DNA of 34,328 bases from Clostridia bacterium (GTDB lineage Bacteria > Bacillota > Clostridia > UMGS1840). Position 1 is the first letter of the stretch. Each line of letters begins with the position of its first letter. Under the pieces are notes generated by a model. The model did not search any database, had not been told where the DNA came from, and saw only the letters and a list, made by a program, of their open reading frames with translations. The stretch lies in assembly GCA_017625695.1 (NCBI GenBank), contig JAGAKI010000062.1:1-34328 (forward strand), in the 5' to 3' direction. A program made the translations under genes and the position numbers. Shown here piece after piece: positions 5,595-34,328 of this stretch.

Positions 5595-6008
5595 TTATTT
5601 GAGATTTAGTTTTTCTATCAATGCGGTTTGCAGAACCTGAGAAAAATTGATGTTGTTTTCCAGTGCTTTTGCATTGAGCCATGCCGGAAGAGTCACGGTG
5701 CGATTAATAGATTTATTTTCTTGTGCAGCGCGAATAGAAGGCATGAATACATCAATCACGCTAATGCATTCGTTTGAATCCAATTCCTCCATTAAAGATT
5801 TGACAGAGGTTGGCTCCGGAATGATATCTCCATCCTGTTCCATTCCGAACAAATGTAATCCTAACGCTTCTTTGGCACACAGAAGTGCTTCTGCTTCGGT
5901 TTCTCCGCTGGTGGCACATCCGGGTAAATCCGGAAATGTAACTGCAATTTCATATCCTTCTTCGAATGTTAAAATTGCAGGATAAATATAGTTGGTTGGT
6001 TGTTTCAT
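5595..6008 (-). CDS. hicB: HicB antitoxin
   Basis: Antitoxin that binds HicA and represses its own operon. The 137-residue protein has the HicB N-terminal fold with the hallmark VTFPDLPGCATSGETEAEAL (about residues 24-43). The C-terminal region (NRTVTLPAWLNAKALENNIN, then FSQVLQTALIEKL) looks like a ribbon-helix-helix DNA-binding domain. Its start has AGGAG 8 bases upstream, a stronger site than that of hicA, which would favour antitoxin excess. It is second in the operon, 42 bases after hicA, in the usual toxin-first order. It lies antisense to the late tail operon. Confidence 0.92.
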   Translation of the reverse strand: MKQPTNYIYPAILTFEEGYEIAVTFPDLPGCATSGETEAEALLCAKEALGLHLFGMEQDGDIIPEPTSVKSLMEELDSNECISVIDVFMPSIRAAQENKSINRTVTLPAWLNAKALENNINFSQVLQTALIEKLNLK

Positions 6009-6050
6009 AACCTAAGCTCCTTTCGATTATGCGGGGGGAAAGCGGGATTC

Positions 6051-6245
6051 TTAAAACAGAATCCCTGCTTGCTTTCCAATACTTTTTAAGGTTTTTGGTG
6101 GTATATCCTTACATGGATGTTTTATTGTGACCTTGCCTTGCTTTACATCATGTTTGAATTGGTGGTGACTTCCTTCTATAGCTACCAGATACCAACCATC
6201 CTCTTGCAGTATTTTGATTACCTCTCTTGAAGAGTAGCTTTTCAT
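6051..6245 (-). CDS. hicA: HicA toxin, mRNA interferase
   Basis: A 64-residue HicA toxin, an RNA-degrading protein with a double-stranded-RNA-binding-like fold. The diagnostic elements are all present: SSREVIKILQEDGW at the N-terminus, the catalytic GSHHQF motif with His27, KVTIKHP, and the closing IPPKTLKSIGKQAGI. It appears intact. A weak ribosome site (GGGAAAG) precedes the ATG. It is the first gene of a leftward two-gene operon driven by a consensus promoter at 6270-6298. It probably acts as lysogen-borne cargo (stability or anti-phage); that role is inference. Confidence 0.92.
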   Translation of the reverse strand: MKSYSSREVIKILQEDGWYLVAIEGSHHQFKHDVKQGKVTIKHPCKDIPPKTLKSIGKQAGILF

Positions 6246-6269
6246 ATCTTTCCCTCACTTCTTGATATT

Positions 6270-6298
6270 ATTATAACACATATTCTTATATTTGTCAA
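6270..6298 (-). promoter_or_regulatory. Promoter of hicAB
   Basis: On the minus strand TTGACA (6293-6298) and TATAAT (6270-6275) are separated by 17 bp. Both hexamers are perfect sigma-A consensus. The start codon of hicA lies about 25 bp beyond the -10 box. Confidence 0.85.
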
Positions 6299-17100: not shown

Positions 17101-17265
17101 TTATCCTTTCTGTTTGATGGTTTGAATGATGCGGACAATGAGCCATACAAGTACCAAAGCATAGAATAAAACAGACCAGATGGATGCATTGTCAGATGAA
17201 ACTGCGTGTAATAATACCAACAAAGGTATCAGTAAATCGTTCATTTTTGAAAAAAATACTTGCAT
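17101..17265 (-). CDS. Small two-helix membrane protein
   Basis: A 54-residue predicted membrane protein with two hydrophobic segments (NDLLIPLLVLLHAV and LFYALVLVWLIVRIIQ) and a basic end KQKG. I chose ATG 17265, preceded by an A/G-rich stretch (AAGAAAG). A longer frame from 17352 would overlap the 26-residue peptide gene and contains polar, unconvincing residues. It ends 5 bases before the start of the RHH-like gene, so the two are likely co-transcribed. Its start overlaps the -35 box of an opposing rightward promoter. Function unknown. Confidence 0.5.
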   Translation of the reverse strand: MQVFFSKMNDLLIPLLVLLHAVSSDNASIWSVLFYALVLVWLIVRIIQTIKQKG

Positions 17266-17288
17266 CTTTCTTTTTTGTATGGTATACT
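17260..17288 (+). promoter_or_regulatory. Rightward promoter facing the 26-residue peptide gene
   Basis: TTGCAT (17260-17265) and TATACT (17283-17288) are 17 bp apart. Transcription would begin near 17295 and run antisense through the small peptide gene. Confidence 0.55.
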
Positions 17289-17294
17289 GTAGAT

Positions 17295-17418
17295 GGAAGG
17301 GGAGCAAGCTCCCCGTTCCGTCCAGGCTACTACTTGAGTTTGAGTATCGCATTGACGATGGTTGCGATTCCGATTATCAACTCCAGGGTAGCCATTATTT
17401 TTTCTACCATATTTTTTC
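17295..17418 (+). ncRNA. Candidate antisense RNA to the 26-residue peptide mRNA
   Basis: A predicted RNA of about 120 nt that starts with a strong hairpin (GGAA-GGGGAGC / GCTCCCC-g-TTCC, 17295-17319). It covers the whole peptide frame and ends at a weak hairpin with GGTAG/CTACC arms followed by T-rich sequence near 17409-17418. The ends are inferred from promoter and hairpin positions only. The layout is like known type I antitoxin RNAs that converge on their toxin mRNA. Confidence 0.4.
17330..17410 (-). CDS. 26-residue hydrophobic peptide, type I toxin-like
   Basis: A short reading frame with an excellent ribosome site (AAAGGAG, 7 bases before ATG) and a perfect consensus promoter 53 bp upstream. 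The peptide reads MVEKIMATLELIIGIATIVN and ends in Leu/Lys-rich residues: one membrane-spanning helix with a basic tail. This resembles the general build of type I toxins (TxpA/BsrG/holin-like toxins), though it lacks their exact family motif. A facing promoter at 17260-17288 could make an overlapping antisense RNA. A leader-peptide role is the main alternative. Confidence 0.55.
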   Translation of the reverse strand: MVEKIMATLELIIGIATIVNAILKLK

Positions 17419-19639: not shown

Positions 19640-19668
19640 TTGACATACAGAAATATCTGTATTATAAT
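19640..19668 (+). promoter_or_regulatory. Rightward promoter with repressor operator, copy 1
   Basis: TTGACA (19640-19645) and TATAAT (19663-19668) have a 17-bp spacer, a perfect consensus. The 18-bp operator ATACAGAAATATCTGTAT spans 19645-19662. A minus-strand TATAAT at 19661-19666 may serve the repressor gene, with only a weak -35. Confidence 0.85.
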
Positions 19669-21758: not shown

Positions 21759-21812
21759 ATACAGAAAAAACTGTATTCCTATATTGACATACAGAAAAAT
21801 CTGTATTATAAT
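21759..21812 (+). promoter_or_regulatory. Early rightward promoter with two repressor operators, copy 2
   Basis: TTGACA (21784-21789) and TATAAT (21807-21812) have a 17-bp spacer. The operator ATACAGAAAAATCTGTAT (21789-21806) fills it, one base different from copy 1 at 19645. A second operator, ATACAGAAAAAACTGTAT (21759-21776), lies 30 bp upstream, on the same helix face about three turns away. This should drive the lytic early operon under repressor control. Confidence 0.87.
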
Positions 21813-22446: not shown

Positions 22447-22470
22447 TTTAAATTAAAAAAATGTCTTTCT

Positions 22471-22573
22471 TTTGCGGAGTGGGGGACAATCTGCCGCGGA
22501 GCGGGGTGAGGGCCGTTCCGCACCGAAGTATTCTTCCCTCTTCGGGAGTGTGGGTTGTTTCCCGCTCCGCAAA
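22471..22573 (+). ncRNA. Predicted three-way-junction RNA element in the early operon
   Basis: A GC-rich block in AT-rich surroundings. The closing stem joins 22471-22490 with 22554-22573: 20 consecutive pairs if G-U is allowed (16 Watson-Crick, 4 G-U). Inside are stem 2, GCGGAgCGG with CCGtTCCGC (22496-22504 / 22513-22521), and stem 3, CCGAAG with CTTCGG (22523-22528 / 22540-22545). The four wobble pairs form only in plus-strand RNA; minus-strand RNA would have A-C mismatches. The element ends 12 bases before the ribosome site of the next gene. Confidence 0.6.
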
Positions 22574-22600
22574 GGGCGGACAAGCAGGAGGTATTTATCT

Positions 22601-22768
22601 ATGTCAACAAAAGTAATTACATTGGAAAATGTAAGGGTTACATATGGTATCAAAAAACAAAAGCTTCACCGGGATCTTCTGGAAGGGTTGAAGCTGATAG
22701 TCGGGACAGGCTGTTTATTCTTTGGCATTATGGTGTTTTGGATGATTGCTTATGCGTTAGGTGGCTGA
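22601..22768 (+). CDS. 55-residue protein with C-terminal membrane helix
   Basis: A polar, basic N-terminal part (STKVITLENVRVTYGIKKQK) and a C-terminal membrane span (LIVGTGCLFFGIMVFWMIAY ALGG in outline). ATG 22601 has CAGGAGG 9 bases upstream. Reading further upstream would translate the GC-rich structured element and is rejected. It lies immediately after that element, so its expression may depend on the RNA fold. Family unknown. Confidence 0.65.
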   Translation: MSTKVITLENVRVTYGIKKQKLHRDLLEGLKLIVGTGCLFFGIMVFWMIAYALGG

Positions 22769-22790
22769 TATGAAATTTTTATGTAAAAAA

Positions 22791-22851
22791 GAAAAAAGCC
22801 CGTATGCTCGGCAAAGCACACAGGCACACCCGATTGGGTGAAAAAAAACTC
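22791..22851 (-). ncRNA. Short leftward RNA gene, OOP-like in layout
   Basis: A complete transcription unit on the minus strand. A consensus promoter lies at 22858-22886, and the predicted start is near 22851. A small hairpin CACCC-AATC-GGGTG (22827-22840) follows. A terminator hairpin then joins GCCTGTGTGC with GCATACGGGC (22816-22825 / 22798-22807), which pairs perfectly (with two G-U) only in minus-strand RNA, followed by TTTTTTCTTTTTT. The RNA would be about 60 nt with no reading frame. It lies opposite to the early operon, like lambda OOP RNA. Confidence 0.7.
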
Positions 22852-22857
22852 AGTTAC

Positions 22858-22886
22858 AGTATAGCATACTAAATAAAATATGTCAA
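22858..22886 (-). promoter_or_regulatory. Promoter of the short leftward RNA
   Basis: On the minus strand TTGACA (22881-22886) and TATACT (22858-22863) are 17 bp apart. The -35 box sits within the leader of the rightward gene that starts at 22900. Confidence 0.75.
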
Positions 22887-22899
22887 GAGGTGAAATTGT

Positions 22900-23514
22900 A
22901 TGGTGAAGGAATATTCCTTCGGGGAGCAGGAGACAGAGTTTTCATTAGAAGCGAATAAAATGATTCCCGTGGAAAAAACACCGGAGTATGAAATGTCGAA
23001 GCGGAAAGTGCTTGAACTTTTGGAAAAAAACAAGGTGTTAACAGAAAATGATTTCTGGATTCTGAAAAAAGAAGCGAAAGACCATTCTGTTATCCGATAT
23101 CTTAACTTGGTGATTAAGCATACAGGATGTCTGAAGCTGAATGATAAGGCATCTGCAGCGCAAAAATTTGACCCGATGAGTGTTTCGCTGGATAAAAGCG
23201 GATATCGTGACAGTCTGGTATATACATACCGAAATCAGGAACAGGGGATTTTTGAAGTTGGGGAAGCCAGCCGGCGAAATTGTAAAAACGGATATCCGTA
23301 TGCAACTGCACTCAAGCGATTGTTTGACCGTGTAGTTCTTCGTATTGCAAAAATCAGTTTTGAATGCATCCATTCGGAATCGGAAGCAATGGAAGATGAA
23401 TTTGTGGAACTTCCGACCGATGAGAAAGCAAAAGACCATAGCGGGGAGTTCGAGTTTCCGTCAGCGGCGGATGCATTTAAACAGGTGACAGGCAATGAAA
23501 GTCAATGTTCATAA
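22900..23514 (+). CDS. Putative DNA recombination protein (single-strand-annealing-like)
   Basis: A 204-residue protein opening the DNA-metabolism cassette. N-terminal helices (KRKVLELLEKNKVLTENDFW) are followed by a mixed region with LNLVIKHTGCLKLNDKASAA, strands DSLVYTYRNQEQGIFEVGEA, then the helix NCKNGYPYATALKRLFDRVV. The last recalls the 'KnAvTDAlKRAlr' helix of Rad52-fold annealing proteins, and the gene lies beside NinB-like, HNH and SSB genes where an annealing protein is expected. That resemblance is weak and no established motif proves it. The acidic C-terminal tail (EDEFVELPTDEKAKDHSGEF) may bind partners. It overlaps the next gene by 20 bases. Confidence 0.4.
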   Translation: MVKEYSFGEQETEFSLEANKMIPVEKTPEYEMSKRKVLELLEKNKVLTENDFWILKKEAKDHSVIRYLNLVIKHTGCLKLNDKASAAQKFDPMSVSLDKSGYRDSLVYTYRNQEQGIFEVGEASRRNCKNGYPYATALKRLFDRVVLRIAKISFECIHSESEAMEDEFVELPTDEKAKDHSGEFEFPSAADAFKQVTGNESQCS

Positions 23515-25112: not shown

Positions 25113-26012
25113 ATGGCTCGTCCTATTACCAAAGGACTTGCTTACTTTCCTTTTGATACAGATTTCTTTTCTGACCGGAAGATAAAAAGTCTCCGGGGAA
25201 AATATGGCGCAGATGGTATTGTAGTTTATTTATACATACTGACCGAAATATACAAGGAAAACGGCTATTATTTAAAGATTGATGGAGATTTTTATTTGGT
25301 AGCTTCCAATGACCTTAATATGAGCGCCGATAAAATAGAGCAGATAGTAGTATTCTTATGCGAGCGGTCGATGCTGGACAAGCAGCTTCTCGTGTCGGAC
25401 GATGTGCTGACTGCTCACAGTATACAGCGTCGATATCAGAAAGCGGTTTCTGAAAGAGGACAGAAACGCATTATTGAGGTTGACCGAAAAATATGGGTTC
25501 TGAAAGAAAATGAGACGGAACCTTTTATTAAGTGTACCTTGTTTTTGGATTCTTCCGAGAAAAACCCGAGTTATTCCGAGAAAAACCCGAGTTATTCCGA
25601 GAAAAACCCGCCTAAAGAAAATAAAAGAAAAGAAAATAAAAGTAAAGTAAGTAAGAAAGAAAGTGAGAGTGCACTTTCCTTCGACTCTATGATTGATAAT
25701 TACACCCAAAATGAAGAATTGCGTTTCGTACTGAAAGAGCATTTGAAAACGAGGAAAGCAAAGACTAAAGCAGCACTTACCAATTATGCGATTGAACTCA
25801 GTTTTAAAACTTTGGATAAGTTATCTAACAGCGATGATGGAAAAATTCGCATTGTAAAAAAATCTATTGAGCGTGGTTGGATAGGATTCTTTCCCGAGAA
25901 GAAAGACAATACACCAACCAAGGCAGGTCCGCTTAACAATTTTCATCAGGATATACCTGACTTTGACGCCATCACAAAAAACATCATAGAAAGGCAGATG
26001 AGTGATGGGTAA
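25113..26012 (+). CDS. Replication initiator, Lin1244/Lin1753-like (DUF4373) protein
   Basis: A 299-residue replisome organiser. Its N-terminal domain is characteristic: KGLAYFPFDTDFFSDRKIKS, GIVVYLYILTEIYKENGYYL, then VLTAHSIQRRYQKAVSERG, a winged-helix domain that binds origin DNA. A low-complexity linker holds three repeats (SEKNPSY units) encoded by 21-bp iterons, then a Lys/Glu-rich run. The C-terminal domain (about 190-270) has DnaD-like helices (LKEHLKTRKAKTKAALTNYA; VKKSIERGWIGFFPE). No helicase loader gene follows, so host loading proteins are probably used. AAGGAG precedes the ATG. Confidence 0.82.
   Translation: MARPITKGLAYFPFDTDFFSDRKIKSLRGKYGADGIVVYLYILTEIYKENGYYLKIDGDFYLVASNDLNMSADKIEQIVVFLCERSMLDKQLLVSDDVLTAHSIQRRYQKAVSERGQKRIIEVDRKIWVLKENETEPFIKCTLFLDSSEKNPSYSEKNPSYSEKNPPKENKRKENKSKVSKKESESALSFDSMIDNYTQNEELRFVLKEHLKTRKAKTKAALTNYAIELSFKTLDKLSNSDDGKIRIVKKSIERGWIGFFPEKKDNTPTKAGPLNNFHQDIPDFDAITKNIIERQMSDG
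25553..25610 (+). repeat. 21-bp iterons in the initiator gene, candidate replication origin
   Basis: Two full 21-bp units (25553-25573, 25574-25594) and a third of 16 bp (25595-25610) are identical and directly repeated. Each contains TTCCGAGAAAAACCCG. They are followed by about 60 bp of A-rich purine sequence on the plus strand, suited to melting. Iterons inside the initiator gene next to an AT-rich tract are the classical phage origin design. Confidence 0.65.
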
Positions 26013-34045: not shown

Positions 34046-34328
34046 TTGAATTTTGTCGATAGACTGAAACGGTTATTCAACGGTAAGAAAACCGTTTATT
34101 TAACAGAAAAATTTTCTTCAGATGTTATGGAACTTGCGATTACAGAATTTGCTATCAATGTGGCAATCAGTCTGATAGCCGGAGCGGTTTCAAAATGCGA
34201 GTTTAGAACTTTTCAAAATTTTCAGGAAGTGTTTGGGGACGAATACTACCTGTGGAATGTTGAGCCGAATCGTAACCAGAATTCCAGTCAGTTTCTCCAG
34301 GAAATGATACATAAGCTTTTGTATGAAA
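34046..34328 (+). CDS. Portal protein (5' part; continues at position 1)
   Basis: TTG start 5-6 bases after ACAGGAGTG. The protein opens MNFVDRLKRLFNGKKTVYLT then FAINVAISLIAGAVSKCEFR, the usual portal N-terminus with a hydrophobic helix. It continues without a stop to the window end, where the last 141 bases equal positions 1-141. Across the junction the frame matches the rest of the gene exactly. It must be counted as one gene with the entry at 1-1007. Confidence 0.93.
   Translation, partial: MNFVDRLKRLFNGKKTVYLTEKFSSDVMELAITEFAINVAISLIAGAVSKCEFRTFQNFQEVFGDEYYLWNVEPNRNQNSSQFLQEMIHKLLYE
34188..34328 (+). repeat. Terminal overlap identical to positions 1-141
   Basis: All 141 bases match the window start. 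This is the mark of a circular assembly, and 141 is a k-mer length used by a common metagenome assembler. It lies inside the portal gene, so a true terminal repeat or attachment site is unlikely. Confidence 0.95.

Follow-up and report, generated by a model that had tools for sequence, protein, structure and literature searches.

Genomic context of the locus

The window, by which we mean the whole 34,328-nucleotide stretch of DNA that was analyzed, makes up an entire contig of its genome and encodes a serine recombinase, terminase genes, and a Cro/CI-type repressor. Its ends are identical over 141 bases (1-141 and 34188-34328), and we therefore take it to be a temperate phage genome that was assembled complete and circular, with a length of ~34.19 kb. 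The host belongs to a sparsely sampled Clostridia-type order, its class being judged from the named relatives of its genes. The rightward early promoter (TTGACA-17-TATAAT, 21784-21812, plus strand) carries the palindrome ATACAGAAAAATCTGTAT as its spacer. The motif ATACAG-N6-CTGTAT occurs only at 19645, 21759, and 21789 (plus strand), inside or beside rightward promoters, with two copies placed exactly in the spacers of perfect rightward promoters (19640 and 21784); this placement suggests that these motifs are likely repressor operators. Just right of the early promoter, at a position like that of lambda pRE, the minus strand bears a promoter-like TTGATT-17-TATACT with an extended -10 (21878-21850), which matches the small-RNA promoter described below at 25 of 49 positions.

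The early operon includes a 55-aa ORF (22601-22768, plus strand) with an AGGAGG Shine-Dalgarno sequence and one C-terminal transmembrane segment (Kyte-Doolittle 2.27). Its C-terminus (...AYALGG) has no positively charged tail, it has no family match, and no promoter lies directly before it, placing it within the operon; the ORFs upstream of the small RNA are unclassified. In the gap before the 55-aa ORF (22463-22581), the plus-strand RNA folds as a single, very long hairpin (-75.6 kcal/mol, z -6.2, versus only -47.2 kcal/mol for the minus strand) for which we found no homologue, and which may serve as an RNase III site or in antitermination. The next cistron, a 204-aa ORF (22900-23514, plus strand), has homologues in Clostridia phages and no match in Pfam, PHROGs, or NCBIfam. 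Because a homologue in a Monoglobus plasmid record comes after a Gam gene, we treat this ORF, by context, as a recombination-module gene. Farther downstream are NinB-like, SSB, and Lin1244-type replication initiator genes, the last of which (Lin1244_N/phrog_2562) starts at 25113, 2.2 kb beyond the small RNA. Within the initiator gene, 2.8 perfect copies of a 21-bp repeat (25553-25610, plus strand) are probable origin iterons.

A predicted leftward small-RNA gene between two early cistrons

The 131-nt gap between the 55-aa and 204-aa ORFs holds a compact unit on the opposite strand. Read on the minus strand from 22886, the order is TTGACA (22886-22881), the 17-nt spacer TATTTTATTTAGTATGC, TATACT (22863-22858), GTAACT, and GAGTTTTTTTTCACCCAATCGGGTGTGCCTGTGTGCTTTGCCGAGCATACGGGCTTTTTTCTTTTTT. 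The original prediction of a perfect TTGACA, a 17-bp spacer, and TATACT read leftwards is thus borne out by the sequence, with a -35 hexamer that matches at 6/6 positions and adjoins the ribosome-binding site of the next plus-strand gene, and a -10 hexamer that matches at 5/6. In addition, the spacer ends in TGC, creating an extended -10 (TGC TATACT, 22858-22866, minus strand) that the prediction had not mentioned. This element sits inside the imperfect palindrome AGTATAGCATACT, which we considered as an operator and rejected: near-identical sequences were found at other promoters, and AGTATAGCATACT for that reason probably just reflects the extended -10. The operator motif ATACAG-N6-CTGTAT is absent from the leftward promoter, and the whole window contains no LexA-type box (GAAC-N4-GTTC).

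The predicted RNA is ~65 nt long (22785-22851, minus strand), both ends being inferred rather than mapped, with the start set 7 nt past the -10 and the end taken from the U-tract. The sequence 3' of the promoter, GAGUUUUUUUUCACCCAAUCGGGUGUGCCUGUGUGCUUUGCCGAGCAUACGGGCUUUUUUCUUUUUU, folds into two hairpins. Hairpin 1 is CACCC AATC GGGUG (22827-22840, minus strand), and the second is an intrinsic terminator (22785-22825, minus strand), composed of a 12-pair stem and then U6CU6. The stem (22825-22798) has G-U pairs at two internal positions and is closed by a U-G pair; TTTTTTCTTTTTT follows it, reaching ~22785. As minus-strand RNA the region has a minimum free energy of -26.9 kcal/mol (z -5.7), and none of 200 shuffled sequences was equally stable. 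The plus-strand fold reaches only -18.3 kcal/mol, with the second stem broken by mismatches and the T-run missing. Since the stem is intact and followed by a T-run only on the minus strand, the unit is directional, in agreement with the earlier claim that the terminator is fully paired, with G-U pairs, only as minus-strand RNA. The anticipated anatomy of about 60 nt with two hairpins and a U-rich terminator also holds, although the RNA ends slightly past the proposed position of 22791, at ~22785. The RNA contains no ATG ORF and only GTG or TTG starts, none with a Shine-Dalgarno sequence, and so, as predicted, no credible reading frame.

In silico, the locus is thus a complete and self-contained small-RNA gene with a near-consensus extended promoter, a two-hairpin RNA, and an intrinsic terminator, and we consider it very likely that 22886-22785 on the minus strand is genuinely transcribed as a unit. 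The predicted RNA would pair without mismatch with the stretch of early mRNA that separates the 55-aa and 204-aa ORFs, and it overlaps neither coding sequence nor ribosome-binding site: its 3' end lies ~17 nt past the stop codon (22768) of the 55-aa ORF, and its 5' end (~22851) is 49 nt away from the downstream start codon, leaving the ribosome-binding site at 22885-22892 uncovered.

Comparison with chance expectation and with known phage RNAs

Promoter-like sites by themselves are not in excess in the region (22 found versus 22.2 expected); those matching at least 11 of 12 positions number 5 versus 1.9 expected. Pairing of such a promoter with a strong terminator within 110 nt was seen in none of 40 Markov-shuffled windows, and relaxing the promoter threshold to at least 9 of 12 gave 0.075 pairs per shuffled window. 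Leftward in the window, the small-RNA unit is the sole promoter-terminator unit of this kind. As positive controls, the same scanner recovered lambda OOP (38711-38604), among three hits in lambda, and P22 oop (32374-32279), the sole hit in P22; the promoter match score of the window's unit exceeds that of both. The scanner missed P22 sar and returned one hit in each of two Firmicutes phage records.

The likeness to lambda OOP is extensive. OOP is a short leftward non-coding RNA with its own sigma-70 promoter and an intrinsic terminator, opposite the rightward early operon, and the same arrangement is predicted here. Each RNA forms two hairpins (77 nt for OOP, ~65 nt in the window) and is intercistronic in an early operon, with its promoter next to where the following gene begins. 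Hence, the proposed resemblance to OOP holds for size, for the pair of hairpins, for direction, and for where the promoter lies, as well as for recovery by the same scanner, whereas the claim that the RNA occupies the same place as OOP is only approximately correct. OOP lies between cII and O, while the RNA in this Clostridia phage is flanked by a membrane-protein ORF and a recombination-type ORF, with the initiator 2.2 kb away. The 3' part of OOP is antisense to the 3' end of cII, whereas the window's RNA reaches no coding sequence; the OOP promoter is LexA-controlled, whereas the small-RNA promoter lacks a LexA-type box; and the RNA shares no sequence similarity with OOP of either lambda or P22.

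P22 sar offers a second precedent: by annotation it is a leftward RNA of 68-69 nt that fills an intercistronic gap, its promoter lying where the downstream gene begins. It differs in covering the ant ribosome-binding site, and sequence similarity is again absent. Because no ribosome-binding site is covered by the window's RNA, its mechanism is not sar-like. By anatomy, then, the RNA is predicted to work like OOP or sar, but it is not established as an OOP: cII-type overlap, LexA control, and sequence homology were each looked for and not found. Most documented OOP-type countertranscripts come from lambdoid phages, and we regard this predicted transcript as a credible orphan addition to a known kind, the short countertranscript of a phage early operon.

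Distribution of the element among related phages

We found no DNA homologue of the RNA body in genomes (sets of 99, 9, and 391, the last drawn from the class), in viral contigs searched by pattern, or in phage and plasmid records. All DNA matches outside the phage in these genome sets were short (24-39 nt). The matches inspected (L002-L005) and most of the others cover only the promoter, lie in unrelated contexts, and share an extended -10, TRTGNTATACTG, that is common. In viral contigs, pattern scanning gave two chance matches (L006 and L066), and phage and plasmid DNA gave one promoter-only match in a human-gut phage contig (L068) besides weak noise. Rfam returned only sub-threshold noise for the small RNA and gave no credible match for lambda OOP either.

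To follow the site itself, relatives were gathered with the 204-aa protein and then with a three-sequence alignment, yielding 17 genome loci and 39 viral loci. Together with other loci, these form 48 groups that are 29-52% identical to the 204-aa query. None of the 48 groups carries the cassette at the equivalent site; the relatives among which conservation of the promoter and stems was sought, mostly only 40-52% identical in the neighboring protein, lack the element there. This distribution, with relatives that have no element at the site and no detectable conservation, would fit a functionless or decaying cassette, in which a promoter and a terminator were left by recombination or accessory insertion. 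Decay would be expected to spoil some part of the unit, yet the two hexamers, the stem at its full length, and the U-tract are intact together; we consider this explanation very doubtful.

Leftward-only promoter-terminator units of similar length and unrelated sequence do occur elsewhere in three of the relatives (L008, L024, and L032). Those in L008 (the same as L020/L040; 160-249, minus strand) and L032 (3302-3392, minus strand) lie farther upstream and would encode RNAs of ~60-70 nt in early gaps, while the L024 unit is in a different context. Leftward cassettes in L025, which has a bidirectional terminator, and in L012 and L060, which overlie ORFs, were dropped, and a search for relatives of L032 itself found none.

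In L008, L032, and the window, the unit comes after a small membrane-protein ORF. A leftward terminator follows 3 of 58 small membrane ORFs versus 2 of 389 other small ORFs, a weak association that is post hoc and built on tiny numbers (Fisher p 0.017 when the window is counted, 0.08 when it is left out). It would be a long extrapolation, and we give it little credence, to suppose that Clostridia temperate phages recurrently place unrelated leftward RNAs of ~60-75 nt just after early small membrane-protein genes, as a convergently evolved class of membrane-protein cistrons under RNA control, between OOP and type I antitoxins.

The same association bears on a type I antitoxin-like role, in which the RNA would pair with the 3' end of the message for the 55-aa membrane ORF and lead to its decay, as RatA pairs with the 3' end of the txpA message and causes its decay. 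Type I antitoxin RNAs such as RatA, SR4, and the C. difficile RCd RNAs are likewise convergent antisense transcripts with their own promoters and an adjacent small membrane-protein ORF, and the upstream neighbor here, like those of the L032 and L008 cassettes, is a small membrane ORF, in this case of 55 aa with one membrane segment. However, type I antitoxins overlap the toxin mRNA 3' end extensively, by about 120 nt for RatA (PMC3531473), whereas the window's RNA, ending ~17 nt past the stop codon, pairs with a polycistronic message only beyond it. Type I toxins also have their own promoter and a charged tail, the positively charged C-terminal tail being a mark of C. difficile prophage toxins (PMC7699646); the 55-aa ORF, as part of the early operon, has neither. 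These differences, and the small numbers behind the membrane-ORF association, make such a role quite unlikely.

Proposed function of the small RNA

Three further readings concern what the transcript or its synthesis would do, of which we tentatively favor a constitutive, phage-encoded counter-transcript that pairs with the early mRNA and triggers its cleavage, although we would put this at somewhat short of an even chance. Because the small-RNA promoter lacks the likely operator found at both strong rightward promoters, it may be on while the early promoters are off, and the RNA would then be made both during lysogeny and ahead of early transcription. In this phage, two further strong leftward promoters drive accessory-type genes (HicA/HicB from 6298 and a small-peptide locus from 17491), which fits leftward promoters being expressed in lysogeny. 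The RNA would pair with the early mRNA in the gap between the two cistrons, probably starting at the hairpin loops, and the duplex could be cut by RNase III, in line with the RNase III-dependent cleavage that OOP brings about in cII mRNA (PMC5869508, PMC12197685). Cleavage would separate and destabilize the two halves of the early message, so that leaky or superinfecting early expression may be dampened, much as lambda OOP does to the cII-O mRNA. Counting against this role, relatives with a homologous downstream gene do without the small RNA, and, since the RNA overlaps no coding sequence or ribosome-binding site, an effect on expression is not obligatory.

A strong promoter without an operator would equally suit a trans-acting small RNA of the prophage, one that pairs with host or other phage mRNAs and for which the antisense position is incidental. 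The RNA's compact fold of two hairpins and its unpaired, U-rich 5' end are also in keeping with such a role, and UUUCACC, which resembles an anti-Shine-Dalgarno sequence, is complementary to GGUGAAA of the neighboring ribosome-binding site (22889-22895). On the other hand, the RNA targets the phage's ribosome-binding sites no better than shuffled RNAs do (best z ~-2), the neighboring gene is outside the top predicted target sites, CACCC is locked in hairpin 1, and conservation beyond this phage was not found. We judge trans-action unlikely on this evidence.

Alternatively, leftward transcription itself rather than the RNA could matter, with polymerase collision tuning rightward early transcription as proposed for lambda pO versus pR. 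The convergent layout and strong promoter agree with this idea, and there is precedent in that lambda pO lowers pR transcription (PMC3985674). Termination after 65 nt, however, leaves a short interference zone, and the iteron-like repeats at 25553-25610 are 2.7 kb away, a distance that prevents the lambda origin link from being transferred to this phage. Interference as the main function is accordingly rather improbable, while under the favored counter-transcript reading RNA polymerase moving convergently may reinforce the effect of pairing.

If the counter-transcript reading is true, an OOP-like layout exists in a phage of Clostridia whose regulatory circuit differs, implying that the layout arises repeatedly, and the locus would provide a single-locus test of whether such RNAs silence early operons during lysogeny. 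Should the cassette prove to be a solitary one, its product would be no more than an ordinary phage small RNA.

Other leftward units of the phage

The HicA/HicB toxin-antitoxin cassette (5595-6298, minus strand) lies within the rightward tail-gene region and has its own perfect TTGACA/TATAAT promoter and a terminator. At the second locus, a perfect leftward promoter (17491-17463, minus strand) precedes a 26-aa hydrophobic peptide (17330-17410, minus strand) with a Shine-Dalgarno sequence (MVEKIMATLELIIGIATIVNAILKLK), which from its sequence looks like a type I toxin candidate. An opposing weak promoter with an extended -10 lies near this peptide locus, at ~17260-17290 on the plus strand.
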